This document shows, one piece after another, positions 7,047-30,645 of a stretch of DNA of 64,000 nucleotides (the stretch's first letter is position 1; each line of letters starts with the position of its first letter). The notes beneath the pieces were generated by a model that saw only the letters and a list, made by a program, of their open reading frames with translations, was not told the origin of the DNA and did no database searches. Origin of the DNA: [Clostridium] citroniae WAL-17108 (GTDB lineage: Bacteria; Bacillota; Clostridia; Lachnospirales; Lachnospiraceae); assembly GCF_000233455.1 (NCBI RefSeq), contig NZ_JH376420.1:98582-162581 (forward strand), written 5' to 3'. A program made the translations under genes and the position numbers.

Positions 7047-7074
7047 TTTATCTTCTCTCTATCTGTATCATGGG

Positions 7075-7605: not shown

Positions 7606-7618
7606 TTTCTTCCTCCTT

Positions 7619-8317: not shown

Positions 8318-8349
8318 GCTCTCCTTTTCTTTTCACTCCACTTTTCTTT

Positions 8350-9198
8350 TCATTTCAGTGCTTCCAGGTAACGCTCAGTGCCGAACACGTTGTAATAATG
8401 CTCCAGGCATTCCATCATTCCCTGGCGCTGTGCATCCCTGAGATCATAATATCCGTTTGCATGGCATTCTTTTGCACGGTTAAATGCGGCCACGATCAGA
8501 TCCGTATAGATATTGATTTTGCTGATCCCGCCCTCTGCGCACCGCCTCAGGTTCTCATCGCCGGAGGAGGAACCGCCGTGAAGCACCAGGGGGGTGCGGA
8601 CCGCGTTCCTGATCTCTGCCAGACGCTCAAAATCGATCACCGGCGTCCCCTTGTATGCCCCGTGGGCCGTTCCAATGGAGATTGCCAGGGAATCCACCTC
8701 TGTCAGGTCTGCAAATCGTTTTGCTTCCTCCACAGTGGTGTAGATGTTGTCGCAGTTTGCGGCATCCTTGTACTCATCCCCTCCGCCCACATGGCCGATC
8801 TCCGCCTCCACCACCGCTCCCCTTAAATGGGCATAGGCAACAATCTCCCTGGTCTGTCTCACATTCTCCTCAAAAGGCTGTGAGGATGCATCGATCATAA
8901 CGGAACGGAATCCCTGGTCAATGGCTCTAAAAATCGTCTCCTTTGTCTGTCCATGGTCCAGATGGAGGACCACCGGCACCTTGGCCTTTTCAGCATAAAA
9001 CCTGCCAATGGCCGCAGCCTCGTCAAAAGGCAGATAGGTCTGATGCGCTTCCGCAAAAGCCAGTATCACCGGAAGCCCCAGCTTTTCCGCCGCCGCAATG
9101 TGTGCTGATGCGGAAATCTGATCCACATAGTTTGGGGCCGGGAATGCAAAGTTATGCTTTCTCGCAGCCTTGAATAATTCTTTTGAAGTAACGATCAT
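8350..9198 (-). CDS. Class II ketose-bisphosphate aldolase (GatY/KbaY/FbaA family)
   Basis: Zinc-dependent TIM-barrel aldolase, 282 aa, of the fructose/tagatose-bisphosphate family. It shows HLDHG with catalytic D81 and zinc ligand H82, a further EAEIGHVGG segment, GTAHGAYKG and LHGGSSSG for zinc and DHAP phosphate binding, and SKINIYTDL. The ATG at 9198 has AGGGGAG nine nt upstream; the in-frame extension upstream lacks a site. It is the first gene of the Gat-type PTS operon and with the TIM-like isomerase 32 bp downstream would convert the PTS product to triose phosphates. The sugar isomer used is not decidable from sequence. Confidence 0.9.
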   Translation of the reverse strand: MIVTSKELFKAARKHNFAFPAPNYVDQISASAHIAAAEKLGLPVILAFAEAHQTYLPFDEAAAIGRFYAEKAKVPVVLHLDHGQTKETIFRAIDQGFRSVMIDASSQPFEENVRQTREIVAYAHLRGAVVEAEIGHVGGGDEYKDAANCDNIYTTVEEAKRFADLTEVDSLAISIGTAHGAYKGTPVIDFERLAEIRNAVRTPLVLHGGSSSGDENLRRCAEGGISKINIYTDLIVAAFNRAKECHANGYYDLRDAQRQGMMECLEHYYNVFGTERYLEALK

Positions 9199-9324
9199 AT
9201 ATTCAACTCCCCTTCTTATACTTTCGTTAACATATTTTCCAGGATCAGATCCGTGTTTGCTGCAGTCAACCACAGAATATATCTTTTATCGTGTTCTAAT
9301 CCTTAATAAAATTCTACCATAAGT

Positions 9325-10411: not shown

Positions 10412-12319
10412 TTATGGCTGAGTCATCCATCCCTCATACACGCCTGTCTCTTCTGCTGCCTCCAGCCACTCCATACACGATCCATGCCACCTTTCCCAAC
10501 TCTCTTTATACCGGCGGCACAGGTTTTCATACTCCCCTTTCTCCGGCCATTTCCCGCCGTCCCAGAATACTTTGGAATCTGTCCATGCATCATGCATTCC
10601 TTCCATGGAAGCGGCTATGGCTGCCATCTCTTCCCCTGCCGCATAGAGACGGTCCAGGACCGGTCCCATTTTCCAGTCTCTGTACGCCGCATCTGTGGAA
10701 AATTCTTTCAGCTGATGGCGCTCCGCCTTTGGGACTGCCCGCATCCCCGCGATCAGAGCCTGCTCCTCCGCTTTGATCTGGGCCGCTATGGGCGCGCCAT
10801 CCCGCATCCTGTTCTTGCGCTCCAGGTAATGTTCATAGCCAAATGGGTAGTACATCACGGACTGGTTTTCAAATATCAGCACCGCGTCAGCCACCTGGCG
10901 GATAAAATACCGGTCATGGGATACAAACAGAATGGTCCCTGTGTATGCCCGGAAGGCTGATTCCAGGTTTTCTTTTGCCTGTATATCCATATGGTTGGTA
11001 GGTTCGTCCAGGATCAGGAAATTGGGACGGCTCTGAAGCAGTTCGGCCAAAACAAGACGTGATTTCTCACCTCCTGAAAGGGAGGCGACCCGCTTCTCGG
11101 CCTCCCGCCCGCCAAAGAGATATGAGCCCAGAATACTTCTGGCCTCTTTCTGGGTAAGGGAGGGAAATATCCCTGTAAAATGTTCAAATACAGAGCAGTC
11201 TGCCTGTATTGCTCCTGCCTGCTGGTCGAAATACCCAATAGTAGTATTATTTCCCAGTGAAAACTCTCCCTCCACAGGAGGAATAAAACCTGCAATGGTT
11301 TTTAAAAATGTAGTCTTACCCACGCCATTTGAGCCAAGTATGGCAATCTTTTGTCCCCGCCGGATCCGCATAGTGACCTCCAGCAAAGCTTTCCCGTAGC
11401 CGATCTTTAAATGTTCCGAAGTAAATATCCATTTGCTGCCGGGAATCTCCGGTGTGATCTCACCGGTAAATATATGGGTATCCTCCTCCAAGGGCTGTTC
11501 TACCCGCTCCATCCGGTCCATGGCTTTGCGTTTTGCCCTTGCAAACGCCGCTTTATTGGGTTTATGCTTAAAGCGCTCTACCAGGCCGCCCAGACGCTCC
11601 AGTTCCTCCTGCTGTTTCTCGTATGCCTTTTTCTGAAGACGGATCCGCTTTCCCTTTTCCTCTTTGTAGTGGGTGTAATTGCCCGGGTATCTGGTCAGAC
11701 TGCCGTGAGACAGCTCGTAGACCACCTCTGCCGTGCGGTCCAGAAAAAAGCGGTCATGGGATACCATCACCACTGCCTTCTCATATCGCTCCATATACCG
11801 TTCCAGCCATTCACATGTCTCCATGTCCAAATGGTTGGTGGGCTCATCTAACAGCAGGATATCCGGCCTTCCAAGAAGAAGCCGGATCAGTGCGATCTTT
11901 GTCTGTTCTCCCCCGGAAAAATGGGAAATAGGCTTTTTCTTGTCCTCCTTTGAGAATCCCAGACCGGTGAACAGGATATCATATTCCCGCTCGTATTCAA
12001 ACCGTTCCCTGTCAAAACTGTCCTTGCAGGGGCAGGAGCTGAGAAGCTCCTCCTGCACGGTCCTGTCCATGTCTGAAAAGACCTGCTGAGACAGCATGCC
12101 TATCGTCACCTGCCTGGAACAGGTGATCCCGGGCCCCTGGCGCCGGTCATCCCGGTCCAGGGAAAGCTCGCCTGCGATCAGCTTCAAAAGGGTGGTCTTA
12201 CCCGCGCCGTTCTTGCCAACCACCGCGATCTTCTCAGTTCCGTGTATCTGAAAATTTATATGGGACAGGATCACCTTCCCTCCCGCTGAAACAGTTCCAT
12301 CCGTAATCTGATATAACAT
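10412..12319 (-). CDS. ABC-F family ATPase
   Basis: Soluble twin-ATPase protein of the ABC-F family, 635 aa, without membrane segments. First ABC domain: Walker A GKNGAGKTT (about 35-43), signature HFSGGEQ, Walker B DILLLDEPTNHLD. A charged coiled-coil linker (about 215-275) follows, then the second domain with GSNGVGKTT, SLSGGEKSRL and FLILDEPTNHMD, and a 130-residue C-terminal extension with helical, Trp-rich sequence. ABC-F proteins act on the ribosome, either as translation factors or giving resistance to PTC-targeting antibiotics; which one applies here is not decidable. There is no clear ribosome site near the ATG. It follows an exported protein gene by 26 bp. Confidence 0.9.
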   Translation of the reverse strand: MLYQITDGTVSAGGKVILSHINFQIHGTEKIAVVGKNGAGKTTLLKLIAGELSLDRDDRRQGPGITCSRQVTIGMLSQQVFSDMDRTVQEELLSSCPCKDSFDRERFEYEREYDILFTGLGFSKEDKKKPISHFSGGEQTKIALIRLLLGRPDILLLDEPTNHLDMETCEWLERYMERYEKAVVMVSHDRFFLDRTAEVVYELSHGSLTRYPGNYTHYKEEKGKRIRLQKKAYEKQQEELERLGGLVERFKHKPNKAAFARAKRKAMDRMERVEQPLEEDTHIFTGEITPEIPGSKWIFTSEHLKIGYGKALLEVTMRIRRGQKIAILGSNGVGKTTFLKTIAGFIPPVEGEFSLGNNTTIGYFDQQAGAIQADCSVFEHFTGIFPSLTQKEARSILGSYLFGGREAEKRVASLSGGEKSRLVLAELLQSRPNFLILDEPTNHMDIQAKENLESAFRAYTGTILFVSHDRYFIRQVADAVLIFENQSVMYYPFGYEHYLERKNRMRDGAPIAAQIKAEEQALIAGMRAVPKAERHQLKEFSTDAAYRDWKMGPVLDRLYAAGEEMAAIAASMEGMHDAWTDSKVFWDGGKWPEKGEYENLCRRYKESWERWHGSCMEWLEAAEETGVYEGWMTQP

Positions 12320-12345: not shown

Positions 12346-13206
12346 CTAGTTCCTTCCTCCCTGTATACTGTCAATAAAACGTTCTGTCATTTCCTCACAT
12401 TCAGGGTTGTCCGGATAAGAAAATGCCATTTCCATCACCATATCATCGATCTTTCGTGTGAAGTTCTGGTGCCCGTACCCCCATGCCTTATATTTGAAAC
12501 CGCTGAATCCATGCCCGCCGATCACGCGCTCAGTCTCCACAAACGGTCCCGGATAGCGGTATTCATGGATCAGGTCATAATTATGCTTTCTCATCTGGTC
12601 CCCTGCTGGGATCTGAGGGTCATTGTCCTTATGATACCAGATAAACAGGGAATATCCGCCGTATTCTGCGGTGGCCGCTGTTCCAATGTCATAATAATTC
12701 TGCCCCCTGGCTTCCTCATCCCTGTACTCACTTACAATGCTGATATCACTGTCCGGTGGGATCAGAAGTCGGTAATCGGACCATTTATTCACCAATGTGC
12801 TGTCGCTGAGCAGAGCCATCCCAAAAGGGATTCCGGTCAGTTCCCGGTCCATGGTTTTTGTCTGTGTCCCTTCTTCTGTCATCCACGCTCCCCATGGATC
12901 CACCTGGTACCCATCTGGAGTTGTGGTATTCTGGTACATATTCCCCTGGGAATCAAAACAATAGCACTCCGCCGTCCCGTCCATATCCCCATCGATCCAA
13001 TACCAGCCGTCTTTCAGCAGATCTCCGTCCGAGTACCTGTAGCTCCAGATCCCCAGGTGATCCTGCTCCCACTGCCCTGCCTGGGATACAATTCCGGATA
13101 CCAGCCCGGTCAGCACCAGTACATTGCCCGCTGCAAAGGCCATGGCAGCTTTTTTTACAAGTTTTATCATTCCTTTTATCTTTCTGTGATTTATAATAGG
13201 ATCCAT
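12346..13206 (-). CDS. Exported protein with cell-wall-binding-like repeat
   Basis: 286 aa of uncertain function. An N-terminal basic stretch and hydrophobic segment (about residues 13-42, ending SQAGQW) look like a signal peptide or anchor. Residues about 50-110 contain aromatic/Gly motifs (GIWSYRYSDG, GWYWIDGDMDG, AECYCFD) like the choline/glucan-binding repeats of clostridial surface proteins. The rest is a conserved-looking domain of unknown role. The ATG at 13206 is supported by GGGGAGGTG eight nt upstream. It may be co-transcribed with the ABC-F gene 26 bp downstream. I recognise the repeat, not the whole protein. Confidence 0.7.
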   Translation of the reverse strand: MDPIINHRKIKGMIKLVKKAAMAFAAGNVLVLTGLVSGIVSQAGQWEQDHLGIWSYRYSDGDLLKDGWYWIDGDMDGTAECYCFDSQGNMYQNTTTPDGYQVDPWGAWMTEEGTQTKTMDRELTGIPFGMALLSDSTLVNKWSDYRLLIPPDSDISIVSEYRDEEARGQNYYDIGTAATAEYGGYSLFIWYHKDNDPQIPAGDQMRKHNYDLIHEYRYPGPFVETERVIGGHGFSGFKYKAWGYGHQNFTRKIDDMVMEMAFSYPDNPECEEMTERFIDSIQGGRN

Positions 13207-13611: not shown

Positions 13612-14736
13612 TCAGTGTTTCCAATCAGCAGCTTCGGATGCTCTTAATACCTCCGGCATAATGACCACCTGATCTGCAGCATCCTTTCTCTGGTATGTTC
13701 CTGCCCAGATCTCATTGAGTTTCTGAACACAAGTGCGGGCATAAACCTCTGGGAACATGGCAATACTGGCGTAGAAGGTACAGTCAGGTCCCTCGTTCCT
13801 CATAATTTCCAGATGGGAACTGGTTGCATCATAGCCGATCACATATACGTCTGTTGCGCTTGCCGACTGAAGGGCATACCACACGGAGGTGGCACAGTCT
13901 CCCCAATTACAAAAGAACAGATCCACATCAGAATACGCTGCATACATATCCAGCGCCCACTGGTAGCATCCATCATTGGTACGGTCAGTGGTGCGGTTCT
14001 GGACCAGTTCTACCTCAGGATGGTTTTCCTTGATGTAATCGATAAAGCCATTGTTTCGCAATCCGCTGGTCATAATGGAAGGTTCTGCCTCAAACATGAC
14101 AATGGTCGGTTTTTCCACTCCCTCCAAAGCTTTCATGGCTTCTTCTGCAGCCATCTGTCCTCCCAGATAATCATTATAAACAACATCCATGTCCGCATTT
14201 CCCTCAGATGCACAGCAGTCATAGTCCACAATCAGGATTCCGGCCTCATGTACCCTGTCTACCAGGGAAGACGCTGCAACGGTATCAATTGCTGTAAATA
14301 TGATCCCATCCACTCCCTGAATGATCAGGTCTTCAATATTCTGCTGCATTTTGGTCCAGTCCCCATCCGGGTCATAGACGGTAGCCTCCCAGCCCAGCTG
14401 TTCGCATAGCCTCTTGCTAGTTTCTGCACAGGTGGAATTAAACTCTTGAGCCATGGACCATGGAACAATTCCTATCTTCTTTTTTCCCACATCCGTATAA
14501 GTCCAGTCTTCATCAAAACCTTCCAGATTTACAGCCTCCTGGGACAACTGCTGCTCTGATTCCGTCTCTGCCTTCTGTTGCGCTGCGTCCGTCTTTGACG
14601 TATCCTTCTCCTGCTCGCCCTGGGCCGCGGTTTCTCCCGATATCCCTTGTGTGTTCCCCGCAGTATCCTTTCCCTGACATGCGGTTAAAGAAAATGTCAT
14701 GACTGCTGCTAAACATAATGCAATACCTCTCTTCAT
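13612..14736 (-). CDS. Sugar ABC transporter substrate-binding lipoprotein (RbsB-like)
   Basis: Periplasmic-binding-protein family 1 lipoprotein, 374 aa. The signal peptide ends in lipobox LTAC (C20), followed by a Gln/Glu/Thr-rich linker to about residue 85, then two Rossmann-type lobes (KKIGIVPWSMAQEFNS, DGIIFTAIDTVAAS, DVYVIGYDATSS). It captures the substrate outside the membrane and hands it to the permease encoded 59 bp upstream in coordinates of transcription. GAGGAGGGG precedes the ATG. It is the last gene of the operon with PfkB, SIS and HyuAB genes. Family members bind monosaccharides and also sugar conjugates and nucleosides, so the ligand is open. Confidence 0.92.
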   Translation of the reverse strand: MKRGIALCLAAVMTFSLTACQGKDTAGNTQGISGETAAQGEQEKDTSKTDAAQQKAETESEQQLSQEAVNLEGFDEDWTYTDVGKKKIGIVPWSMAQEFNSTCAETSKRLCEQLGWEATVYDPDGDWTKMQQNIEDLIIQGVDGIIFTAIDTVAASSLVDRVHEAGILIVDYDCCASEGNADMDVVYNDYLGGQMAAEEAMKALEGVEKPTIVMFEAEPSIMTSGLRNNGFIDYIKENHPEVELVQNRTTDRTNDGCYQWALDMYAAYSDVDLFFCNWGDCATSVWYALQSASATDVYVIGYDATSSHLEIMRNEGPDCTFYASIAMFPEVYARTCVQKLNEIWAGTYQRKDAADQVVIMPEVLRASEAADWKH

Positions 14737-14795
14737 ATAAAGTACCCCTCCTCTTTTGCTTGTGAAAGCAGCATCGCAACTGCTTTCCCTATTAA

Positions 14796-15812
14796 TTATT
14801 TGTTCTTTTTAGTCCTGGTTGCCAGTTGAGATATCCACATGGAATAGAATACCGCAACAATCATCAGGATCCCTCTTGTGATCATCTGCCAATTAGAGCC
14901 GATATGAAGCAGATTCATTCCATTGGTGATCATGCCCATCATGACTGCGCCCAGAAGCACCCCTATAATTGTCCCTGAACCTCCATCCAGGGAAACTCCT
15001 CCCATGGCGCACGCAGCAATGGCAATAGTGGAATAGCCATCTCCGGCACTTGGAGTTGCGGCACCAACACGCGATGTCATCAGGATTCCAGCTATTGCAG
15101 ACAAACCCGCACATATTATGTATACAATAAGCCTCACTGCTTTTACATTGATCCCCGACAGATAGGCCGCCTGGTAATTTCCTCCTGTGGCGTATATCTT
15201 TCTTCCGAAGGATGTTCTGGTCAGGACTAAAAAGGAAACTGCAAATATAAAGATCATTACCAATGTTGACAGGGGTATTCCTCCAACCTCTTTGTTACTG
15301 ATATCAGTAAATGTCTTCGGAAGTCCTGTCACCGATGTATTATTAGCAAAAATATATAAAATTCCCCGTAGGTATATATCAGCTCCCAATGTCACAATAA
15401 AAGAGGGAATTCTTGTCTTTGAGACAATAAATCCATTGACCGCTCCAAAAACACAGCAGACCGCTACTGTAAACAATACTGCTGGCATAAGGGACAGCTG
15501 AAGTCCAAAAAAACCGTCTGTAATCAATCTGGCACATATCACGCCGCCCAAGCCGGCCATGGCTCCATTGGACAGGTCAAAGGTCCCTCCGATCATAGGA
15601 AACGCCAGAGCACATGATAAAATACCGTACACAACAATCTGTTTTGAAACATTCTTTATATTAGCCACGGACAGGAAGGTGCTGTTCTGTGACTGCACGA
15701 TCAGACAGTATGTGACGATCAGGCATATAATACCTAATAACTCCACATAGCTGGAAGACCTGAACGTATCCCACAGGTTTGCAGGAAAGTTGGATTTTCT
15801 ATCTTTTTTCAT
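14796..15812 (-). CDS. Sugar ABC transporter permease (RbsC-like)
   Basis: Inner-membrane permease of the ribose/galactoside class (branched-chain permease fold), 338 aa, with about ten hydrophobic helices. The motif GVICARLITDG and the late GGVSLDGGSGTIIGVLLGA loop (EAA-like region for the ATPase) are typical. It forms the channel, probably as a homodimer, with the ATPase encoded 21 bp upstream in the transcript. A GAAGGT site lies eight nt before the ATG. Confidence 0.93.
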   Translation of the reverse strand: MKKDRKSNFPANLWDTFRSSSYVELLGIICLIVTYCLIVQSQNSTFLSVANIKNVSKQIVVYGILSCALAFPMIGGTFDLSNGAMAGLGGVICARLITDGFFGLQLSLMPAVLFTVAVCCVFGAVNGFIVSKTRIPSFIVTLGADIYLRGILYIFANNTSVTGLPKTFTDISNKEVGGIPLSTLVMIFIFAVSFLVLTRTSFGRKIYATGGNYQAAYLSGINVKAVRLIVYIICAGLSAIAGILMTSRVGAATPSAGDGYSTIAIAACAMGGVSLDGGSGTIIGVLLGAVMMGMITNGMNLLHIGSNWQMITRGILMIVAVFYSMWISQLATRTKKNK

Positions 15813-15833
15813 CAGTTGTACCTTCTTTCATTC

Positions 15834-17306
15834 CTAAATAGCCAATGTCATGACTTGTTCCTCAGTAACGACTTCCGTATTAATTTCCCCGGATATCCGG
15901 CCCTCCCGCATAACGATAATCCGGTCGCTTACAGCAATCAATTCCGGCAGTTCGGATGAAACCATGATAATTGCAAACCCTTTGCTGGCCAGGTCATTTA
16001 TGATCTTGTATATTTCAGTTTTTGCCCCCACATCCACTCCACGGGTGGGCTCATCCAGCAAAATGACACTGGGATCCGGCGCCATGCATTTGGCCAGAAC
16101 AACCTTTTGCTGATTACCTCCGCTGAGCATTCCTACTTTTTGCTGTGCCCCGGATGTCTTTATATTCAAATTTTCGATAAATGTGCCGACTGTCTGTTTT
16201 CCCTTTTTGCCGCTCAACAGCCCCATTTTTGAAATCCGGTCCAATATGGTCATCTGGATATTGTTCTGGACGGAATGGGAAAGTATAAGCCCTTTATCTT
16301 TCCGGTCTTCGGGAACCATGGAAAACCCTCTGTCAATCGCCGCCCTGGGAGACGTGTTTTTGATCAGCTTGCCTTTGTAGTAGATTTCTCCTTCATAGTT
16401 GTCCACACCATATATGGCCTGCAATAATTCTGTGCGGCCGGCTCCGATCAAACCGCCGAATCCAACCACTTCCCCGGACCGGACCTGGAAGGACACATCT
16501 TTTACCCGCTGGCTGGTCAAATTTCTTACTTCAAGGACAACCTCTCCCGGCTTGTTGGTTTTCTGTACAAACTGCTGCCCGATATCCCTTCCGATCATCA
16601 TTTTTATAATGTCCTCCACCGCCACATCCTTGACCATTGCTTCTCCGGAATAGCGTCCATCTTTCAGTACATATATCCGGTCCCCTACCGCATAGATATC
16701 CTCCATCCTGTGGGAAATAAATATAATGGAAACCCCTTCCTGCTTCAGTTTTCTGATGATGTCATAGAGCATCTTAGTTTCATCCAGTGTTAGTGCAGCC
16801 GTTGGCTCATCCAATACAATAATTGATGAATCATAGGACAATGCCTTCATGATTTCGATTAACTGTCTTTGAGCCACGGAATATTGACGGATCCTGGCAT
16901 CCGGATTATAATGGATGCCAAGGCGTTCCATCAACCGGTTTGTCTTTTCCGTCAATGCTTTATAGTCAATGAAACACCCCTTTTTATCATATCGGCCCAC
17001 AAATATATTTTCTGCAATTGTCATATCCGGAATCTGCACCAGTTCCTGGTGGACAATACTGATTCCCTGGCGGTACGCATCGATCGGCCTATTTATATGG
17101 GCAAGCCTTCCATGAAGATAAATTTCACCTTTCGATGGTTTTTCCACCCCTGTGAGAATTTTCATCAGGGTGGACTTTCCTGCACCATTCTCTCCGCAAA
17201 GACATAGGACTTCTCCCTTTTTCAGGTTAAAGTTCACATCCAGCAGTGCGTGTATCCCCCCATAATCCTTGGAGATATGCTTCATCTCAAGTATATGATC
17301 TTCCAT
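15834..17306 (-). CDS. Sugar ABC transporter ATPase (RbsA-like, twin domain)
   Basis: Twin-cassette ATPase, 490 aa, of the RbsA/MglA class. First domain: Walker A GENGAGKST (about 38-46), signature YSVAQRQ, Walker B IIVLDEPTAALT. Second domain: degenerate Walker A region GGLIGAGRTE, signature LSGGNQQKV and VILLDEPTRGVDVG. This asymmetry is normal for the class. CAGGAGGTG lies before the ATG. It lies directly after the PfkB kinase gene and powers import for the pathway encoded in the same operon. Confidence 0.95.
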   Translation of the reverse strand: MEDHILEMKHISKDYGGIHALLDVNFNLKKGEVLCLCGENGAGKSTLMKILTGVEKPSKGEIYLHGRLAHINRPIDAYRQGISIVHQELVQIPDMTIAENIFVGRYDKKGCFIDYKALTEKTNRLMERLGIHYNPDARIRQYSVAQRQLIEIMKALSYDSSIIVLDEPTAALTLDETKMLYDIIRKLKQEGVSIIFISHRMEDIYAVGDRIYVLKDGRYSGEAMVKDVAVEDIIKMMIGRDIGQQFVQKTNKPGEVVLEVRNLTSQRVKDVSFQVRSGEVVGFGGLIGAGRTELLQAIYGVDNYEGEIYYKGKLIKNTSPRAAIDRGFSMVPEDRKDKGLILSHSVQNNIQMTILDRISKMGLLSGKKGKQTVGTFIENLNIKTSGAQQKVGMLSGGNQQKVVLAKCMAPDPSVILLDEPTRGVDVGAKTEIYKIINDLASKGFAIIMVSSELPELIAVSDRIIVMREGRISGEINTEVVTEEQVMTLAI

Positions 17307-17325
17307 TTGCTCACCTCCTGCTCCC

Positions 17326-18276
17326 CTATGCCAATTGCTTCATCAAATCCATGATTTCGTTTTGTGTAGGCGGATTCCCGTAATACTTGGAAATAAATAC
17401 AGAGGCAAAGGTTGATGCAAATTCCAATGCGTTCCTGGAATCCATCCCGATCTGGAACATAGCATGGAGAAAACCTATATTAAACAGATCACCGGCTCCT
17501 ACTGTGTCCACAGGTGTCACCGGATATGCTCCTGCCCGGAACAGCTTATCGCCATCGATCAGCGCAGCCCCCTCCGCTCCCAGTTTTATGATACACAGCC
17601 GTCCATCACCCGAACCATGAATTCCCATCATTTTCTTTACCTGTATCACGGCCTTGTCAAAACCGGTTTCTCCTGTGAGGGCATGCAGCTCCGATTCATT
17701 CATAAAAAGAATATCAATTTTGTTTAAAAAGTTTGTAAGCTGATTTTTATGACTCCAGGTATCATCCGACCAGATCAGGTCGGTAGAAACAATCTTCTTT
17801 TCTCCCTTCCAATATTCAATGCACTTTATCAATCGTTCTTCCTCAACACGGGGCGGAAGGCACCAGCCGCCTAAGAAGACGATATCTGTTCCGACATTGC
17901 TCTTTATCATAGTACTCTCAATACATTCCAGAGTTCCCTTATAGGTAAGCATAAAACGTTCTCCGTCATTTCTCAGGCATGCGTACGTCTTGCATGTACT
18001 TTCCTGATCCGTAATTTCAATATTCCCGGCGTCCAGATTGAGTTCCTGGATTCGGTTCAGAATAAAACTTCCATCTTCATCTTTTCCAACAATGGAAAAA
18101 ATCCTGAAATCACTGTTCAGAGCGCTTGCCCCCACAGCCATATTGCCGATATTTCCTCCGAGACGTAATATGGGTTTTCCAATTTCCACTTCCTGACCCC
18201 ATTCCGGTATGCGGGATAAACCTGGTATAATAATATCGACTGTCAAATCACCGATCGCACCAATTGTCCGTGCCAT
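17326..18276 (-). CDS. PfkB-family carbohydrate kinase
   Basis: Ribokinase/PfkB-fold ATP-dependent kinase, 316 aa. The N-terminal GDLTVDIII and LRLGGNIGNMAVG motifs form the sugar site; the C-terminal PVDTVGAGDLFNIGF gives the catalytic Asp in GAGD and the anion hole. It would phosphorylate the imported substrate. In this operon it is followed in transcription by an importer and preceded by a SIS-domain protein; the same pair of families (FrlD kinase, FrlB deglycase) breaks down fructosamines elsewhere. A substrate of that kind is inference; ribose-like or nucleoside substrates are also possible. Confidence 0.9.
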   Translation of the reverse strand: MARTIGAIGDLTVDIIIPGLSRIPEWGQEVEIGKPILRLGGNIGNMAVGASALNSDFRIFSIVGKDEDGSFILNRIQELNLDAGNIEITDQESTCKTYACLRNDGERFMLTYKGTLECIESTMIKSNVGTDIVFLGGWCLPPRVEEERLIKCIEYWKGEKKIVSTDLIWSDDTWSHKNQLTNFLNKIDILFMNESELHALTGETGFDKAVIQVKKMMGIHGSGDGRLCIIKLGAEGAALIDGDKLFRAGAYPVTPVDTVGAGDLFNIGFLHAMFQIGMDSRNALEFASTFASVFISKYYGNPPTQNEIMDLMKQLA

Positions 18277-18280
18277 ATAG

Positions 18281-19306
18281 TCACTCCCTTCGTGTCACCT
18301 TTCCCACTAGGGAAGGCTGCAGGTCATCCATCCCCCGTGCCTTTGCAAATCCGGCAAATATCAGCTGCATTCCAAGTGTAAACAAAACACTGGATATCTC
18401 AATGGGGCTTCCAGGCAGTCTCATCACCGGTATGCCGCTCACAAACCTGTGCTTACTATTTGTTAAAACCGCCACCTGTTTCCCGCTCTGCCACAGTTCC
18501 TCCGCCAATACGGATTTTCGTTCCAGTGTGTGATCGTCCGGAATCAGAAAAAGTGTTATAATTCCTTTATTTTGTGTAAGTTCAATAGCACCATGGCGCA
18601 TGACTCCTCCAACCACCGGAATCCCCACTGTCTGTGTCTCGTGAAAGTCCTGGGCATATTGTTCAACAATTCCCGATAGATACCCCTGGCCCTCGATCAT
18701 AATTCCGCTGGATTTCGCGATAATCATACCTATCTTATCCGCCTGTCCTTCCAGCTCAATCACAGCTAATGCCAAATGACAAACCTGTTCTAACAATCCA
18801 TCCAACGAGACACTTGGCTCATAGCCCAATCCCACCGAGATTGCCAAGGTATAGAGTTGTGATATGGTAAAGGAAGCAGTGTTAGAAAATGCTTTCTCCC
18901 GGGCTTCAAATTCCAAAAGGCAGGAGGCTCTCCTTGCAAGCATACTCTCCCTATCCTCCGTCACCCCAATTACCGTTCGTTGGTCATTAATGTTTTCCAG
19001 AAGACGCCTTGTTTCCGCCGACTCTCCTGACCTGCTTACAACCACCAGCGGACGGTCATCCATCTTTTGAGGATACCAGTAATCCAGAAGGTCGCATGTA
19101 TTGATTAGCTGTACATGACTCTTTTTCTGCATGTTAAGGAGGTAATACGCACTTTTTAAAGCAGACAAGGAGGTGGCGATCCCTGTCATGAGAACGGAGT
19201 TATCCCGAACCTCAGACCGGACTTTTCCGGGAATGGATAATATTCTTGATCTGTGGAGGGCAAACAGTTTCGGCTGGCCCAGAATGTCATTTGTTAAATC
19301 TGCCAT
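18281..19306 (-). CDS. Twin-SIS-domain protein, GlmS-C/FrlB-like isomerase or deglycase
   Basis: Two SIS (sugar isomerase) domains in 341 aa, the layout of GlmS C-terminal half, AgaS and FrlB/FraB deglycases. The first domain has TGIATSLSALKSA and the phosphosugar loop VVSRSGESAETRRLL (about 95-110); the second carries VMRHGAIELT, in the place of the ELKHGPLAL active-site loop of GlmS. No glutaminase domain is present, so it is not GlmS. With a PfkB kinase next to it, removal of an amino group or amino acid from a 6-phosphosugar (Amadori deglycase) or a sugar-phosphate isomerisation are the best guesses. Confidence 0.85.
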   Translation of the reverse strand: MADLTNDILGQPKLFALHRSRILSIPGKVRSEVRDNSVLMTGIATSLSALKSAYYLLNMQKKSHVQLINTCDLLDYWYPQKMDDRPLVVVSRSGESAETRRLLENINDQRTVIGVTEDRESMLARRASCLLEFEAREKAFSNTASFTISQLYTLAISVGLGYEPSVSLDGLLEQVCHLALAVIELEGQADKIGMIIAKSSGIMIEGQGYLSGIVEQYAQDFHETQTVGIPVVGGVMRHGAIELTQNKGIITLFLIPDDHTLERKSVLAEELWQSGKQVAVLTNSKHRFVSGIPVMRLPGSPIEISSVLFTLGMQLIFAGFAKARGMDDLQPSLVGKVTRRE

Positions 19307-19314
19307 ATCTATAT

Positions 19315-20973
19315 TTACCCCTCATATCCGTATAATTCCTGTGCCTTTTCCCGGGTTACTTTCTTACAGGCGATATCCTGTTCCAACTTCTTCCTATCCC
19401 GCTCCAGAGGATTTCCATAGCCTGCCCCACCGCCAAGAGCCATCTCTACCCGATCTCCTGCCTTCAACACCGCATGGCCTTTTGCTCGCATATGTTCTAC
19501 TAAACCATCTGCACGCTGTATCTTCAAATATGCTGTCGCTCCATCCTGCCCTCCTTTTGCACCGCGTGCCGGATATTTGAAACGGTCGGAATAAAATGTC
19601 ATGTCCACATGGTCTTTAAGGAACTCATATTCCCTGATTGCTCCCAGACCTCCTCTCATCTTTCCCGCTCCTCCTGAATCGGGACGCAGATCATACCGAA
19701 GGATCCTGAAAAATTTCTGGGCAATTTCCAGGGATTCGACAGGGGAGTTCTTGCAGTTACCCAGGGGATCATCAATCAGATCCGCCCCGTCATTATACAT
19801 TCCGGCCCCATAGCCGCCTCCCAGTTCATCGCTGATGGCCACAAACGTATCCCCCTGCCACTGAAGATTGATCTCTGTACGCTGGTCATATCCTTGCGCA
19901 GGCACACGTTCCGGAAGCACATCCTCAAATGCCTTTAAAATCGACTGGAATACCCTCATGATTATAATATTTCTTCCCTCCACAGGAGCATATTCCCTGG
20001 GATTCAGGATGCAACCCTTGGGTGCAGTAACATGAATAGGTCGGTAAGCCCCATCATTAATGGGCACAGTGGGATCGGTCAGGATCATCTTTAAAGCTGA
20101 ATAAGTGGCTGACACCGTAGATGCAATGGGACAATTGATTGCAGTCACTACCTGGTCGGATGTGCCTTTATAATCAACCATCATAGAATCCCCCTGAACC
20201 GTTACCTTTACCTTGATAATAATCGGATCATCATGGATCCCGTCATCATCTGCCATACACTCCCCATAATAATCCCCGTCCGGAATCTGTTCAATGGCTA
20301 TTCGCATGGCCCGCTCCGCATAATCCAGCAGCTGTTCGGAAACTTCCATGAATTCATCATATCCGTACCGGTCCACAAATCCATGTATCCTTCTCCTTCC
20401 GGTCTCGTTCGCTACCAGTTGTGCATTAAAATCACCGATGGTATCTTTGGGAAGCCGAAGATTCGCCCGCAGGATCTGCTCTAAAATCCCTCCGTTCCAA
20501 TCCCGGGAAAGCGAAAATTTCATAGGGGTAAAACGAAACCTCTCCTCAAATATATCTCTGGCATACAGATTGAATCCCGCCGAATGACCAAGATCAGCGT
20601 GGTGGCCGGCACTGCCCGAGAAGGCAACCAGTTTACCCTCATGTACAACGGGGGAAAACATATAGACGTCTGATTGATGCTGCCCTCCGTTATATGGGTC
20701 GTTGAGAATGATCACATCATCCTCTGTCAAGGCGGACGTGTCTACCTTACTCAATGCCCCTGTCAGCGCTGAACTGACGGAATTCATATGAAGAGGGATA
20801 TTCTGGGACTGTGCCAGTACCCTTCCTTTCGCGTCCGCCAGAAAGGTAGAGGCATCTGCTGCTTCGCGTATAACAGTGGAATATGCACTTCTAAGCATAT
20901 CTGCACTCATTTCTCTGGCAACTGCAAGCAGGTTGTTCGTAAGAATATTAAATAACGCAATATCTTTTGCCAT
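19315..20973 (-). CDS. hyuB: Hydantoinase B/oxoprolinase-family subunit
   Basis: HyuB-type subunit, 552 aa, typical length. Visible family motifs: NDPYNGGQHQSDVYM (about 96-110), SGSAGHHADLGHSAG (about 125-140), ATAINCPIAST-like central segment, and the C-terminal GGLGAIREYEF and GGGAGYGNPLERD. With HyuA it forms an ATP-dependent complex that opens cyclic amides such as 5-oxoproline or N-methylhydantoin. AGGAG precedes the ATG, and only two bases separate it from hyuA. Its presence inside a sugar ABC operon is unusual and points to a substrate that carries a lactam or hydantoin group. Confidence 0.92.
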   Translation of the reverse strand: MAKDIALFNILTNNLLAVAREMSADMLRSAYSTVIREAADASTFLADAKGRVLAQSQNIPLHMNSVSSALTGALSKVDTSALTEDDVIILNDPYNGGQHQSDVYMFSPVVHEGKLVAFSGSAGHHADLGHSAGFNLYARDIFEERFRFTPMKFSLSRDWNGGILEQILRANLRLPKDTIGDFNAQLVANETGRRRIHGFVDRYGYDEFMEVSEQLLDYAERAMRIAIEQIPDGDYYGECMADDDGIHDDPIIIKVKVTVQGDSMMVDYKGTSDQVVTAINCPIASTVSATYSALKMILTDPTVPINDGAYRPIHVTAPKGCILNPREYAPVEGRNIIIMRVFQSILKAFEDVLPERVPAQGYDQRTEINLQWQGDTFVAISDELGGGYGAGMYNDGADLIDDPLGNCKNSPVESLEIAQKFFRILRYDLRPDSGGAGKMRGGLGAIREYEFLKDHVDMTFYSDRFKYPARGAKGGQDGATAYLKIQRADGLVEHMRAKGHAVLKAGDRVEMALGGGAGYGNPLERDRKKLEQDIACKKVTREKAQELYGYEG

Positions 20974-20975
20974 AA

Positions 20976-23018
20976 TTAATTCTCCTCCCTTTTCAGCAAC
21001 AAGCTCCCGTTATCCTGCAGTAATCCAATCCAGTTCTTCGGGATAAAGCAGGTAGTCGTATCATCCTCAACCACAGCCGGCCCCTGTATCCTGGCGTCCT
21101 GTGGCAAATTTGACCAGGTATAGAAATCACAGTCGATCCATTCCCCATCAACCAATACTTTAGAACATGTTGTATCGTAGCGGTCTGTCTTTGCATTATA
21201 TTTCATGCTTTCCAACAGTTGATTATCCTGGGGTATCACAGTTTTTAGACGATAGTTGACTATCTCCACATCATTGTCCGGTGAATTGCAGCCGTATCTT
21301 GCAAGATGCTTTTCATGAAACACCTCTGCTAACTTTCCAGCACTTTCAGGAATTTCATCGAAATCCAGCTGAAGTTCAAATGCTTGTCCCAGATATCTTG
21401 CGTCCACCGCATATTTAAAAATAATCTTTTCCCTGTCGAATCCGTAAGAAACCATATTGTCTGCCGCATGTTCTTGTATTTGTGAAAACTGTTCCCTGAG
21501 CATTTCCGGCGTTGTATCAGTGCATCGTGTAACATGTGTCTGTACATAATCCCTGATCACATCCGCCACCAACAGGCCAAAGGACGAAAGAATGCCTGCA
21601 TAACAGGGCACAAGCACATTTGTGATTCCCAGCTCTTGGGCGATATTGGCTGCATGAAGGCCTCCGCCGCCGCCAAAAGCAACCATTGTATACTGGCGGG
21701 CATCATACCCCCGTTCTGTCGAAACCAACCTCACCGCCTGCATGGTATTTGCCTCCATGATCCGGATCACAGCCTCTGCTACCTCGTCCGGTGACGCATG
21801 TACCTGATCTGCCAGCTCAGCCATGACATGCCTGGCATTCTCCACGTTCAGAGGATAATTGCCTCCTGCAAAATGCTCCGGACGTATGAATCCCCTGTAT
21901 GCCAGCGCATCACTCACCGTAGGCTGATCGCCACCCCGGTCATAGCAGGCCGGTCCCGGAATTGCCCCGGCACTTCTGGGGCCAACCTGGAGCATACCTC
22001 CATTATCCAACCATGCAATACTTCCCCCGCCTGCTCCTACTGTCACAATATCCAGCATTGGAACAGCAATTGCAGAACCGTCAATCTTATTCTCCGTTGA
22101 TACCAGAGGCTCCCCATTATTAACTAGGCACACGTCCGCACTCGTTCCCCCTATATCCAGGGTAATAATATTATGAATCCCCAGCTGACGCGCCATAAAC
22201 GCCGCTCCCGTCACACCCGCAGCAGGGCCGGATAACAGAGTCCTGGCAACTTCCTTCCGCAGTGCTCCCATGGGGATGATACCTCCATTGGATTGAGTGA
22301 TGAAAATCTCTCCCTTAAAATTCCTATGCTTTAAATCCTCGTATAATTTCTCAATATAATTCACCATAACAGGCGCTATATAAGAGGTGATTGCCACAGT
22401 GCTGGATCGTTCATATTCCCGGAACTGGGGAAGTATTTCATAGGATGCAGTTATGATGGCATTGGGAAGCTCTTTTTCAAGTATCTCCTTTGTCCTGGCC
22501 TCATGATCTGCAAACGCATAACTGTGGAGATAACATATTCCCACAGACTTGACATCCTCCCTTTTTAACTCCTGGGCAATGGACCGTATCTGATCTTCCT
22601 CCAAGGCCTTCAATACATCACCATCTGCAGTAACCCGCTCTGTTACAGGATACACCATATTGCGCGGTATGATCGGCTTACGCCTCTGGTAAAACAGATC
22701 GTAAACATTTTCCTTATCTCCCCGCTGTATTTCAAGGACATCTGCAAACCCTTCCGTCACCAGCAATGCTGATTTTACACCCTTTCGTTCCAGGACTGCA
22801 TTGGTGGCAACCGTTGAACCGTGAAGCATCTCTCCCATGTCACTCCATTCCGGTATCAGTTTATCCGCACCTTCAATCACTGCCTGCTCCGGCTGTGCCG
22901 GGGTGGATGCAACCTTTAATGTCTCCAGTACAGACCTTCCGTCTTTTTCCTGGAAATAGATAATGTCTGTAAAGGTGCCCCCTATTTCGGCTGCAAATTT
23001 CCTTTTTACATGTTCCAT
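20976..23018 (-). CDS. hyuA: Hydantoinase A/oxoprolinase-family subunit
   Basis: HyuA-type ATPase subunit, 680 aa, typical for the family. The actin-like N-terminal motif EIGGTFTDIIYF (about residues 11-22) and the later LDIGGTSADVCLV (about 292) form the nucleotide site; GPRSAGAIPGPACY and GDQPTVSDA are conserved. It phosphorylates the substrate amide so that HyuB can hydrolyse it. The gene follows the ROK regulator by 21 bp and has an AAAGGAG site. Related acetone/acetophenone carboxylases share the fold, but those normally need further subunits not seen here. Confidence 0.92.
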   Translation of the reverse strand: MEHVKRKFAAEIGGTFTDIIYFQEKDGRSVLETLKVASTPAQPEQAVIEGADKLIPEWSDMGEMLHGSTVATNAVLERKGVKSALLVTEGFADVLEIQRGDKENVYDLFYQRRKPIIPRNMVYPVTERVTADGDVLKALEEDQIRSIAQELKREDVKSVGICYLHSYAFADHEARTKEILEKELPNAIITASYEILPQFREYERSSTVAITSYIAPVMVNYIEKLYEDLKHRNFKGEIFITQSNGGIIPMGALRKEVARTLLSGPAAGVTGAAFMARQLGIHNIITLDIGGTSADVCLVNNGEPLVSTENKIDGSAIAVPMLDIVTVGAGGGSIAWLDNGGMLQVGPRSAGAIPGPACYDRGGDQPTVSDALAYRGFIRPEHFAGGNYPLNVENARHVMAELADQVHASPDEVAEAVIRIMEANTMQAVRLVSTERGYDARQYTMVAFGGGGGLHAANIAQELGITNVLVPCYAGILSSFGLLVADVIRDYVQTHVTRCTDTTPEMLREQFSQIQEHAADNMVSYGFDREKIIFKYAVDARYLGQAFELQLDFDEIPESAGKLAEVFHEKHLARYGCNSPDNDVEIVNYRLKTVIPQDNQLLESMKYNAKTDRYDTTCSKVLVDGEWIDCDFYTWSNLPQDARIQGPAVVEDDTTTCFIPKNWIGLLQDNGSLLLKREEN

Positions 23019-23039
23019 AATGTATCTCCTTTCATATAA

Positions 23040-24098
23040 TTATGCTTTAATTATCTGCACAGCTGCTTCAATTTTGTTTCTGCAAAGCGATATAATACCA
23101 TCCAGATTCTTTTCCGCGATCACATCATCAATGATGATTGCCGGGACATAATCGCTGTGGATATAGTTGGAGATTTCGGACTGTATCTTAGGTATGTCAT
23201 CCTTTGACAGATGAGGAGTTGCCACTACCATCAGGTCCGGATCCATGACACAGCAGATGTTAACAAGAAGACGCGCAACCAGAGTTATGATACCATCTTT
23301 ATTTCCCGTCTCAAGAGCCTGCGCAAGGATCGCATCCGCACACCCGCATTGATTAGGCTTTCGGTTATACTCTCCCAATGCCATATAAGCCAGCTCACCT
23401 GCAAAACTGTTACAGCTGTTATAAAGCTTTCTGTTAATGATAATGGCTGAGCCGATATGATCCAGAATACTTATATACGCCATATTCTGGTTGTTCTCAT
23501 GTAAAAACTGGCTGCATGCCCCCATGGTGGCTGATTTAATGTCATTTTCAATCCATACCCTGCATGGATATTTCCTGGATATCAGATCCTTTAAATCCAT
23601 CCCTTCCCATTCAGGAATGGCCGGAATATTATAGATCCTGTTGTTGGTAACAGTACCGGGAACCGCGATTCCAATTATCTCAATCCGTTCCGCATCGATT
23701 TTACGGGTCATGGTTTCCAGCACCTTAAGCAGATTCCCGGACCAGTCCAAGTCCTGATTTCTATGGTAAATCTGCGAAATGATCTCCTTTTCCATAATAT
23801 TGGTAATTTTACAGTGAAATTGGTCTCCCTGGATATAGATGCATACAATATATCCCTTGTTTTCATTCACTTCATAGACTCGTGCTCTGCGTCCTCCTGT
23901 GTATGTGCTGATGCCGGTACATATTACCGACCCTTTCTCTTCCAGACTTCGCACCACTTTATTCACGGTCTGCAGACTCAGTCCTGTGGAATCTGCAATC
24001 TGCACCTGTGACACTCCAGGGCTTGATGCAATTGCATTCAAAACAATATTCTCATTCACCTTCTTGATTGTCTGGGGTTTGCCAACATATGTATCCAT
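23040..24098 (-). CDS. ROK-family transcriptional regulator
   Basis: ROK (NagC/XylR type) regulator, 352 aa. N-terminal winged helix (VSQVQIADSTGLSLQTVNKVV, about 29-50) then a sugar-kinase-like sensor domain with IGIAVPGTV and IENDIKSATMG. The usual zinc motif GELGHM...CxCG reads GELAYM...CGC: the conserved His is a Tyr, so zinc binding is probably altered. No intact kinase function is expected. It is the first gene of the hyu/ABC operon, directly behind the consensus promoter at 24184-24211, and most likely represses that promoter until a pathway sugar binds. Confidence 0.9.
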   Translation of the reverse strand: MDTYVGKPQTIKKVNENIVLNAIASSPGVSQVQIADSTGLSLQTVNKVVRSLEEKGSVICTGISTYTGGRRARVYEVNENKGYIVCIYIQGDQFHCKITNIMEKEIISQIYHRNQDLDWSGNLLKVLETMTRKIDAERIEIIGIAVPGTVTNNRIYNIPAIPEWEGMDLKDLISRKYPCRVWIENDIKSATMGACSQFLHENNQNMAYISILDHIGSAIIINRKLYNSCNSFAGELAYMALGEYNRKPNQCGCADAILAQALETGNKDGIITLVARLLVNICCVMDPDLMVVATPHLSKDDIPKIQSEISNYIHSDYVPAIIIDDVIAEKNLDGIISLCRNKIEAAVQIIKA

Positions 24099-24183: not shown

Positions 24184-24211
24184 ATTATAGCACACGCTAA
24201 AACCATGTCAA
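24184..24211 (-). promoter_or_regulatory. Near-consensus sigma-A promoter of the ROK/hyu/ABC operon
   Basis: On the minus strand TTGACA (24206-24211), a 16-bp spacer and TATAAT (24184-24189) are both perfect hexamers. Between here and the ROK start is an AT-rich stretch with AATAAACTT (24148-24156 region) and its inverted near-copy AAGTTATT (24173-24180 region), a plausible ROK operator. A promoter this strong ahead of a catabolic operon needs a repressor. Confidence 0.8.
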
Positions 24212-28744: not shown

Positions 28745-29680
28745 TTACATCCCCATCTGCTTAGCTACCTCAGCTGCAAAATCCTCGTTCTTCTTCTCAA
28801 GACCTTCGCCAGTCTCAAAACGAACAAACTTCTTGATCTTGATGTTGGCGCCGTTTTCCTTAGCTACGGCTGCAACATACTGGGATACGCTCTGCTTGCC
28901 GTCCTCAGCCTTAACGTAAACCTGATCCAACAGACAGGTTTCCTTCAGCTCCTTGTTTACACGGCCCTTTACCATACCCTCGATAATCTTATCGTTGGCA
29001 TCCGGCTTCTCATTCTTAGCAGCTGCTGTGAGGATCTCAGTTTCTTTGGCAATATATTCAGCGCTTACTTCATCCCTGCTGGTGAACATTGGCTTTAATG
29101 CAGCTGCCTGCATTGCCACGTTCTTCGCCATCTCAGTAATAGCATCGTTTACAACATCTGTCTCAACATCAATCAGAACGCCGATCTTACCGCCTGCATG
29201 GATATAGGAAGCAACAAAACCATTGGCCTCTTCTACCTGCTCAAAACGGCGGATGTTCATGTTCTCGCCAATAATGGCAATCTGGGAAGCCAGTGCTTCC
29301 TTCACGGTCAGGGACTCATCCTTGGCCCACTTCTCTTCCAGGAATGCGTCTAAATCCTTAGCGCTTGTGTTCAGAGCCTGTGCTGCCACATCAGCAACAT
29401 AAGTCTGGAACTTCTCATTCTTAGCAACGAAGTCAGTCTCTGCGTTTACTTCAACTACAACTGCCTTCTTATGATCATCGGTTAATGCGGTAGCCACGAT
29501 ACCTTCAGCCGCGATACGGCCGGCCTTCTTAGCTGCTCCGGCAAGTCCTTTTTCCCTCAGGAATTCAACGGCCTTATCCATATCGCCATCAGTTGCTGCA
29601 AGAGCTTTCTTGCAGTCCATCATTCCGGCACCGGTTACTTCTCTTAACTCTTTTACCATTGCTGCGGTTACTGCTGCCAT
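28745..29680 (-). CDS. tsf: Elongation factor Ts
   Basis: Nucleotide exchange factor for EF-Tu, 311 aa. The N-terminal UBA-like domain starts MAAVTAAMVKELREVTGAGMMDCKKAL-type (read in pieces: VKELREVTGAGMMD and KKALAATDGD), followed by the core motif VEVNAETDFVAKN that contacts EF-Tu. The ATG at 29680 lies eight nt after GGAGG; a TTG five codons upstream overlaps that site and is rejected. It follows rpsB by 36 bp as in most bacteria and ends at a strong terminator. Confidence 0.98.
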   Translation of the reverse strand: MAAVTAAMVKELREVTGAGMMDCKKALAATDGDMDKAVEFLREKGLAGAAKKAGRIAAEGIVATALTDDHKKAVVVEVNAETDFVAKNEKFQTYVADVAAQALNTSAKDLDAFLEEKWAKDESLTVKEALASQIAIIGENMNIRRFEQVEEANGFVASYIHAGGKIGVLIDVETDVVNDAITEMAKNVAMQAAALKPMFTSRDEVSAEYIAKETEILTAAAKNEKPDANDKIIEGMVKGRVNKELKETCLLDQVYVKAEDGKQSVSQYVAAVAKENGANIKIKKFVRFETGEGLEKKNEDFAAEVAKQMGM

Positions 29681-29716
29681 TTCATTTTCCTCCAATTTAA
29701 AAGTTTTAAAGTTTAA

Positions 29717-30463: not shown

Positions 30464-30487
30464 GTTCTTTACCTCCATGTGGTTTTA

Positions 30488-30515
30488 GCCTGCTACGCTT
30501 CACGTAGGTTCAGGC
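30488..30515 (-). promoter_or_regulatory. Leader hairpin of rpsB
   Basis: On the minus strand GCCTG-AAC-CTACG-TGAAG-CGTAG-CAGGC folds into two stacked 5-bp stems with a 3-nt bulge on one side, about 25 nt upstream of the rpsB start. A structured leader in front of rpsB is a common place for autogenous control by S2; that it works this way here is inferred. Confidence 0.5.
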
Positions 30516-30645
30516 ACTTCCGTCTGCTTCTCATGTTTCCCGGAAGACCTGTCCGAATATTAGTTTCCAGTTAAATGTTGGTTTCCAATATACATCCAGG
30601 CACCGTCCCGTAGAATCCACAGACGTGTTTTTTGTCAGCCTTACA

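Follow-up and report, generated by a model that had tools for sequence, protein, structure and literature searches.

Operons for the breakdown of Amadori compounds, such as frlBONMD of Bacillus subtilis, frlABCD of Escherichia coli, and fra and gfr of Salmonella, combine uptake with a kinase or a phosphotransferase system (PTS) and with an enzyme of the SIS fold that cleaves a carbon-nitrogen bond. We analyzed a 64,000-nucleotide stretch of the [Clostridium] citroniae WAL-17108 genome (contig NZ_JH376420.1, positions 98,582 to 162,581; hereafter the window) that carries an operon of the same general make-up, encoding an ATP-binding cassette (ABC) importer, a PfkB-family sugar kinase, and an SIS protein. 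Unlike the Amadori operons, this locus has an SIS protein that falls outside the FrlB/FraB clade, its importer resembles the ribose transporter RbsABC, and a HyuA and HyuB pair (HyuAB) related to the caprolactamase CapAB has been added. Gene sets of the importer, kinase, and SIS kind are known already; the addition of HyuAB is unusual, and the operon is both real and rare. Among the open-licence papers listed in our literature searches, none describes the combination of HyuAB with an SIS protein and a PfkB kinase, as judged by titles and the starts of abstracts.

Organization of the operon and its importer

The operon consists of eight open reading frames (ORFs) on the minus strand at positions 13612 to 24098, with the same coordinates as in a preliminary description of this DNA. 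All eight start with ATG, each start is preceded by a purine-rich stretch, and the genes, followed in transcriptional order, are separated by 21, 2, 8, 4, 19, 21, and 59 bp. A candidate sigma-70-like promoter on the minus strand (positions 24184 to 24211; TTGACA-16-TATAAT, with TG before the -10 element) matches the consensus at 12 of 12 positions and lies 85 bp upstream of the start of the first gene. Of the 36 promoter-like sites that 12.25 kb contained, no other matched at all 12 positions. Because shuffled sequence gave a mean of 23.2 such sites (standard deviation 4.8) at the same loose threshold, the lesser sites carry little weight. Two promoter-like matches on the opposite strand, one within the ROK gene (23204 to 23231, 10/12) and one within the ATPase gene (16884 to 16912, 11/12), are probably due to chance. 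The ORFs, their Pfam matches, the short gaps, and the 12/12 promoter match bear out the earlier description of a minus-strand operon with this gene content behind a consensus-like promoter, and they support the prediction that the eight genes form one operon. Among the NCBIfam matches listed (for the ATPase, the best 25 of 192), none of the eight proteins exceeded a model cut-off.

The first gene (23040 to 24098, minus strand) encodes a ROK-family regulator with a helix-turn-helix domain (Pfam ROK, 4.3e-17; HTH_24, 2e-8), which scored 66.6 bits against the NagC model (cut-off 650). This protein is a probable local repressor, and the putative catabolic operon is probably repressed by it.

The last three genes, all on the minus strand, encode an RbsA-like ATPase with two ABC domains (15834 to 17306; Pfam ABC_tran in two stretches, 1.4e-54), an RbsC-like permease (14796 to 15812; BPD_transp_2, 2.5e-34), and an RbsB-like substrate-binding lipoprotein (13612 to 14736; Peripla_BP_4, 1.6e-37). 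These matches confirm the complete RbsABC-type importer that had been described. Compared with the ribose importer itself, all three components fell below the NCBIfam cut-offs (RbsA, 533 of 745 bits; RbsC, 202 of 398; RbsB, 69.4 of 337), and the ATPase was also below those of the AraG and XylG models. By these scores the transporter is predicted to be of the ribose/arabinose/xylose kind, matching no named member. The binding protein aligns with solved ribose-binding proteins (2fn9, 1.2e-24). At the 11 positions that we take to be the ribose contacts of E. coli RbsB, it keeps four residues and has changed seven in the alignment, whereas the solved homologs 2fn9 and 2ioy keep 10 and 11, respectively. 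Because seven of the 11 contacts are lost, plain ribose is an unlikely ligand. An additional Arg at the F164 position would fit an acidic ligand, which is speculation.

The SIS protein

The SIS gene (18281 to 19306, minus strand) encodes a GlmS-type protein (Pfam SIS, 4.2e-7). It had been described as a twin-SIS protein; homology agrees with this, as the GlmS model covers residues 37 to 332, but Pfam reports a single SIS stretch (residues 48 to 154). In the alignment, the presumed catalytic residues of GlmS, E488, H504, and K603, are matched by Glu, His, and Lys of the protein. It shares these columns with the isomerase domain of GlmS and with GlmD, a glucosamine-6-phosphate deaminase like NagB-II, but is far under the cut-offs of the GlmS and GlmD models (48.1 of 418 and 19.5 of 580 bits, respectively). 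The NCBIfam FrlB model NF008481, against which E. coli FrlB scores 812 bits, gave no match to the SIS protein at E ≤ 1.

In a 33-row tree, the 19 FrlB/FraB rows formed one starred clade (support 100/99), and the SIS protein of the window lay outside it. These rows comprised E. coli FrlB, aligned fragments of 3eua, 3fkj, and 9otr (we take 3eua to be B. subtilis FrlB and 9otr to be FraB), and 15 FrlB-like proteins of the genus; the tree used 15 of 30 fetched FrlB-like loci and left out an SIS fragment from genome G151, which is described below. The approximately unbiased (AU) test rejected a union of the SIS protein with FrlB/FraB (p 0.027) and one with GlmS (p 0.024); it did not reject one clade made up of this protein and eight SIS proteins from importer cassettes of other bacteria (p 0.326). 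The neighbors of the window's protein in the 33-row tree are L002 and SIS proteins from importer operons elsewhere (90/96), a placement that is unsure owing to long branches. A tree without the rhizobial and AgaS rows gave a starred set of seven (100/99), namely the SIS proteins of the window, L002, and five Bacillota cassettes. AgaS and GlmD share the same side of the tree as the window's protein, weakly (71/63). L002 (G000:C14:115140-116030) is a second GlmS-type SIS protein of the window's genome, 27% identical to the first; its gene adjoins a DctM permease gene of the tripartite ATP-independent periplasmic (TRAP) kind, and by eye its surroundings include a GntR-type regulator and a DapA-like gene.

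Residue patterns were compared as well. Glu and His at the E488 and H504 columns occur in all 33 rows and are hence unspecific. Lys at the K603 column was considered as a mark against FrlB and then dropped, since Lys is there too in 9 of the 16 rows of the FrlB clade whose C-terminus is complete. An EMQW stretch is present in 17 of the 19 FrlB/FraB rows, the exceptions being E. coli FrlB and L050, and is absent from the SIS protein of the window. Though no FrlB, this protein is predicted, from its homology, to be probably an enzyme that isomerizes an amino-sugar phosphate and cleaves its C-N bond.

The PfkB kinase and importer cassettes elsewhere

The PfkB-family sugar kinase (17326 to 18276, minus strand; Pfam PfkB, 4.7e-44) exceeds the model cut-off of none of the named subfamilies listed and scored 97.1 bits against the ribokinase model (cut-off 299.65). 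Its union with RbsK was rejected (AU p 0.0185). The kinase tree, which at first had 17 rows and included two FrlD-like kinases of the genus, the only ones in the fetched FrlB loci, was recalculated after removal of the L024 kinase (end branch 4.86). In both trees the kinase was nearest by path to the cassette kinases; in the second it grouped with them at 80/86, unstarred, and it would belong with them weakly. The earlier assignment of the two proteins holds only in part in these trees: the SIS protein and the kinase lie nearest to pairs from other importer operons, the former apart from FrlB/FraB and GlmS and the latter apart from RbsK.

The SIS protein has its closest relatives in these cassettes (L005 to L007, L021, L022, and L024), and so, weakly, does the kinase; the cassettes contain an importer and mostly a ROK gene. 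A plasmid tblastn search returned 16 records with an SIS protein at 27-29% identity, and three of these loci, all rhizobial (L005 to L007), were examined along with five of five Bacillota loci (L020 to L024). According to their annotation, the three plasmid loci each encode a ROK protein, an extracellular solute-binding protein, two permeases, an SIS protein, a PfkB kinase, and a UgpC-type ATPase. Among the Bacillota loci, L021 has an RpiR-type regulator, SIS protein, PfkB kinase, SBP_bac_1 binding protein, and two permeases; L022 has a ROK protein, binding protein, two permeases, SIS protein, and PfkB kinase; and L024 has a binding protein, two permeases, a ROK protein, a ketohexokinase-like PfkB kinase (PF25270), and an SIS protein. 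L023 carries an SIS gene, a gene for a ROK-like protein (23% identical to that of the window), and transporter-sized ORFs, and in L020 the SIS gene is the last gene at the contig end. Unlike the operon of the window, the cassettes lack HyuAB and use another importer class (SBP_bac_1 and BPD_transp_1 in Bacillota; UgpC-type by annotation in the plasmids). The SIS protein of the window is 23-26% identical to those of the cassettes, and the SIS and kinase comparisons overall lie at 23-28% identity with long branches. The papers listed in a literature search for the gene set gave neither a description of these SIS/kinase pairs nor a substrate for them.

HyuA and HyuB

HyuA (20976 to 23018, minus strand; Pfam Hydantoinase_A, 2e-94, with N- and C-terminal domains) is the ATP-site subunit and HyuB (19315 to 20973, minus strand; Hydantoinase_B, 1.8e-146) the metal-site subunit of a predicted ATP-dependent cyclic-amide hydrolase. 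Their closest known counterparts are CapAB of Pseudomonas jessenii (6YRA), with which both align near full length, and the ATP-dependent hydantoinase/5-oxoprolinase superfamily. HyuB D40, H99, D102, and H124 align with the zinc ligands Asp41, His99, Asp102, and His124 of CapB (6yra_B), which are reported to be essential, with activity lost on mutation of the caprolactamase (PMC8453981). HyuA keeps Asp295 of CapA (6yra_A) but has Glu11 in place of Asp11, a residue whose change to Ala is reported to cut product formation strongly (PMC8453981). The earlier reading of HyuAB as an ATP-dependent ring opener is consistent with the zinc ligands and Asp295 and less so with this Glu, which was found at the Asp11 column in 4 of 25 HyuA proteins (those of the window, G151, L008, and L009). 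Against the caprolactamase models, HyuA scored 532.8 bits (CapA cut-off 1000) and HyuB 264 bits, both below the cut-off. The structure 7hk5, whose chain is named N-methylhydantoinase, outscored CapAB for both subunits.

The best-ranked HyuB proteins of a plasmid search were those of L008 (Agrobacterium pAt2, 40.5%) and L009 (Aminobacter p1, 39.3%). These loci share the HyuA Glu variant with the window and, in contrast to it, their annotated plasmid stretches contain no sugar kinase or SIS gene. L008 and L009 joined the pair of the window and G151 both in the tree of HyuA (88/92) and in that of HyuB (94/94), without a star in either; in a 27-row HyuA tree, this union reached 91 in the Shimodaira-Hasegawa-like approximate likelihood ratio test (SH-aLRT) and was still unstarred. 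By path length, several Bacillota HyuA proteins are as near as those of L008 and L009.

In L008 and L009, HyuAB adjoins genes for a PF01177 protein (Asp/Glu/hydantoin racemase) and an M20 hydrolase. Against TIGR01879 (cut-off 204), the M20 protein of L008 scored 34.5 bits, and that of L009 had no listed match at 1e-5. As neither M20 protein passes the cut-off for a carbamoylase, we treat "hydantoin" as a lead and not as a finding. An assignment of HyuAB to a hydantoin type on the strength of a carbamoylase neighbor was considered and is weakened by the low M20 scores and by the inclusion of Asp/Glu racemases in PF01177. Elsewhere in the window's genome, one protein passes the cut-off for the hydantoinase/carbamoylase amidase family; judged by this match, it could complete the processing of a hydantoin product.

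A second locus and the distribution of the genes

One orthologous locus was found (L004/L010 in G151, a genome from another genus of the family), with the gene order ROK-HyuA-HyuB-SIS. HyuB is 90%, HyuA 83%, and ROK 73-74% identical between the two genomes, and because this identity is high while synonymous sites are saturated, purifying selection on ROK, HyuA, and HyuB is indicated. The nonsynonymous divergence (dN) was 0.12 and 0.07 for HyuAB and 0.41 for the SIS gene, for which the synonymous divergence (dS) was 4.4. The SIS gene belonged to the operon in the common ancestor, but HyuAB, as judged from this comparison, seems worth keeping without it.

The following counts come from partly overlapping samples of genomes, with the window's own genome included in each total. 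The SIS query matched 1 of 61 genomes of relatives (E ≤ 1e-30) and 1 of 391 genomes of the class (E ≤ 1e-18), in both cases its own, and 2 of 397 genomes of the family (E ≤ 1e-25), its own and G151. In the phylum it matched 6 of 348 genomes (E ≤ 1e-13), its own and five at 24-30% identity. A search of genome contigs with the SIS query retrieved no relative among 223 pattern stretches, and an alignment scan with HyuB retrieved a single locus from 139 stretches, CAMNRM010000035.1, which is the G151 locus. HyuA matches at E ≤ 1e-110 were found in 8 of 371 class genomes and 41 of 378 phylum genomes, and no other HyuA above 42% identity was present among the matches listed. The window's own genome has no second HyuA copy at E ≤ 1e-20.

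Within the genus, 3 of 17 genomes encode a protein of the HyuB family (E ≤ 1e-40). In two genus mates (L059 in G015 and L060 in G010), HyuAB lies beside ORFs that by eye resemble TRAP transporters. In L060, both hyu genes are split over several ORFs, and a GlmS/AgaS-like SIS gene lies about 300 bp off on the other strand.

Proposed pathway and alternatives

The best single reading of the operon is that it acts on a ring-bearing sugar derivative, with an explanation by two separate functions close behind. The RbsABC-type importer would take up a monosaccharide-sized sugar derivative with its nitrogen in a ring (a lactam, a hydantoin, or a similar cyclic amide), and HyuAB would open the ring with ATP, so that the nitrogen becomes a free amine. 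Once the sugar had been phosphorylated by the PfkB kinase, the SIS protein would isomerize the sugar phosphate and cut the C-N bond, which would yield a hexose phosphate (that of fructose or of glucose, phosphorylated at C6) together with an amine or amino acid. The ROK protein would sense the imported compound or its phosphate. Within this scheme we infer the identity of the imported compound, the sequence of reactions and what they yield, and the part played by ROK. The pathway as a whole, from import through ATP-dependent ring opening and phosphorylation to C-N cleavage, is a tentative proposal, the account that we would choose first without expecting it to be right. The tight operon, the linkage of ROK-HyuA-HyuB-SIS in a second lineage, and the recurrence of importer, SIS protein, and PfkB kinase elsewhere argue for it. 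So do the 12/12 promoter match, the Glu, His, and Lys kept by the SIS protein, the four zinc ligands of HyuB, the loss of ribose contacts in the binding protein, and the presence of N-fructosyl-pyroglutamate in food. HyuAB is placed before the SIS protein because, by chemical reasoning, an amide nitrogen lacks an available lone pair and cannot readily form the imine needed for SIS cleavage; opening of the lactam as the last step, which the preliminary description had proposed, would be less likely than opening it first.

The class of substrate (lactam, hydantoin, or Amadori compound) is a guess, and candidates may be fructosyl- or glucosyl-pyroglutamate. Because N-fructosyl-pyroglutamate occurs in food, its identification by mass spectrometry being reported for buckwheat honey, a lactam-bearing glycated compound is a real nutrient (PMC12114437). 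A C2-type conjugate is also possible because the gfr system of Salmonella is described as having fructoselysine- and glucoselysine-phosphate cleaving enzymes side by side (PMC12675984). We are more doubtful of, but take seriously, the stronger claim of a new pathway, in which the Glu-variant HyuAB would open a cyclic amide on an imported sugar so that an SIS protein of an uncharacterized family and the PfkB kinase could split the sugar from the nitrogen; its substrates may be a glycated hydantoin, fructosyl- or glucosyl-pyroglutamate, or muramic-delta-lactam. If true, cyclic amides would join the sugar-amine conjugates known as bacterial nutrients, and there would be a first handle on the SIS/kinase pairs of rhizobial plasmids and Bacillota. 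Fructosamines have been linked to gut colonization in Salmonella (PMC12675984). The operon turned up in few of the sampled genomes and so probably matters little ecologically.

Several results weigh against the proposed pathway, beginning with the Glu of HyuA at the position of CapA Asp11. The predicted structure of the SIS protein, based on two input sequences, had a mean predicted local distance difference test (pLDDT) score of 37.4 and was not used. With the long L024 row included, the position of the kinase in its tree is an open fork, and its union with FrlD was not rejected (AU p 0.198). HyuAB, which the preliminary description had expected in orthologous operons, is present in the sole ortholog found but in none of the eight distant SIS loci examined (three plasmid, five Bacillota). 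Conversely, of 13 additional HyuAB loci, 10 of them the top matches in the phylum and three taken from nine non-own places in the class, none gave an SIS or PfkB match by blastp at E ≤ 1e-6 within the fetched stretches, of which L095 and L113 end at contig ends. The gene set as a whole was recovered in G151 as far as ROK-HyuA-HyuB-SIS, but with the SIS gene truncated and the kinase and importer missing: the SIS gene matches residues 4-197 only (54%) and stops before the catalytic Glu and His, and a tblastn search of the 19.9-kb G151 stretch at E ≤ 1e-3 gave no match to the remaining SIS sequence, the PfkB kinase, the permease, or the binding protein. The sole PfkB match in the whole G151 genome at E ≤ 1e-10 is 28% identical. 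The HyuA, HyuB, and ROK frames stay open in this genome.

Because G151 keeps open HyuAB and ROK genes with the SIS gene truncated and the kinase and importer gone, HyuAB may have a role of its own. The operon could accordingly house two separable functions under one regulator, namely a cassette for a sugar or amino sugar (importer, kinase, and SIS protein) and a HyuAB enzyme acting on an unrelated cyclic amide. The very unequal divergence of HyuAB and the SIS gene between the two genomes fits this explanation, as do the lack of HyuAB at the distant SIS loci and its retention in G151. It is less easily reconciled with the gap of only 8 bp between HyuB and the SIS gene, or with the occurrence of ROK-HyuA-HyuB-SIS together in two genera whose flanking ORFs, from the ORF lists, look different. 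Taken by itself, we regard it as rather unlikely, although by no means far-fetched.

The route originally put forward, in which a glutamine Amadori product closes to fructosyl-pyroglutamate (presumably the opine DFOP) and is split by the SIS protein as an FrlB/FraB-type deglycase, now appears improbable. It draws on fructosyl-pyroglutamate being a known food compound (PMC12114437) and on the B. subtilis frl operon, which is reported to use a deglycase, a kinase, and an ABC importer (PMC12632257). It is also in keeping with the window's genome, which has no FrlB-family match at E ≤ 1e-15 though 14 of 16 genus mates have one. In five of the genus mates (G001, G003, G009, G015, and G016), two FrlB-family genes stand side by side, as gfrE/gfrF might. 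The SIS protein, however, lies outside the FrlB/FraB clade, has no EMQW stretch, and gave no match to the FrlB model, and the kinase is not nearest to FrlD, although that union was not rejected. On the clade, the AU test, and the FrlB model, we rejected the SIS protein as an FrlB/FraB Amadori deglycase, and the proposed FrlB/FrlD pair is not upheld.

Salvage of muramic-delta-lactam from the spore cortex would have HyuAB open the delta-lactam at the nitrogen of C2, the kinase phosphorylate C6, and the SIS protein remove the C2 amine. The SIS protein, being outside FrlB/FraB, is on the weakly supported side of the tree with AgaS and GlmD, and enzymes of the AgaS/GlmD type act on 2-amino sugars. 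Muramic-delta-lactam is described as a natural lactam-bearing sugar (PMC12444981, PMC10116595), and an ATP-dependent enzyme system is reported to hydrolyze valerolactams (PMC11033972). As the operon has no glycosidase or lactyl-ether enzyme, we consider this salvage route very improbable. To a carboxylase function of HyuAB (acetone/acetophenone type) in place of hydrolysis we give almost no credence. Models of acetophenone carboxylase subunits, which belong to the same superfamily, do match HyuA (267 and 217 bits) and HyuB (84 bits), but we rejected this function on scores: against the caprolactamase models the two proteins reach 533 and 264 bits, two to three times those values. Pfam finds no further carboxylase subunit among the operon's genes.

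Neighboring genes

Downstream of the operon, positions 12346 to 13206 encode a small protein whose choline-binding-repeat match falls slightly short of the cut-off, and positions 10412 to 12319 encode an ABC protein with two ABC domains and a PF12848 linker (ABC-F-like). Farther along, positions 2705 to 9273 hold genes for a GAT-type PTS permease, a PRD/EIIA regulator, and a class II fructose-bisphosphate-type aldolase, possibly forming one PTS sugar operon. On the other side, at positions 28745 to 36496, genes for EF-Ts, CodY, DNA topoisomerase I, DprA, and a Mg-chelatase (ComM-like) lie in a row, so that core genes stand beside the accessory operon.

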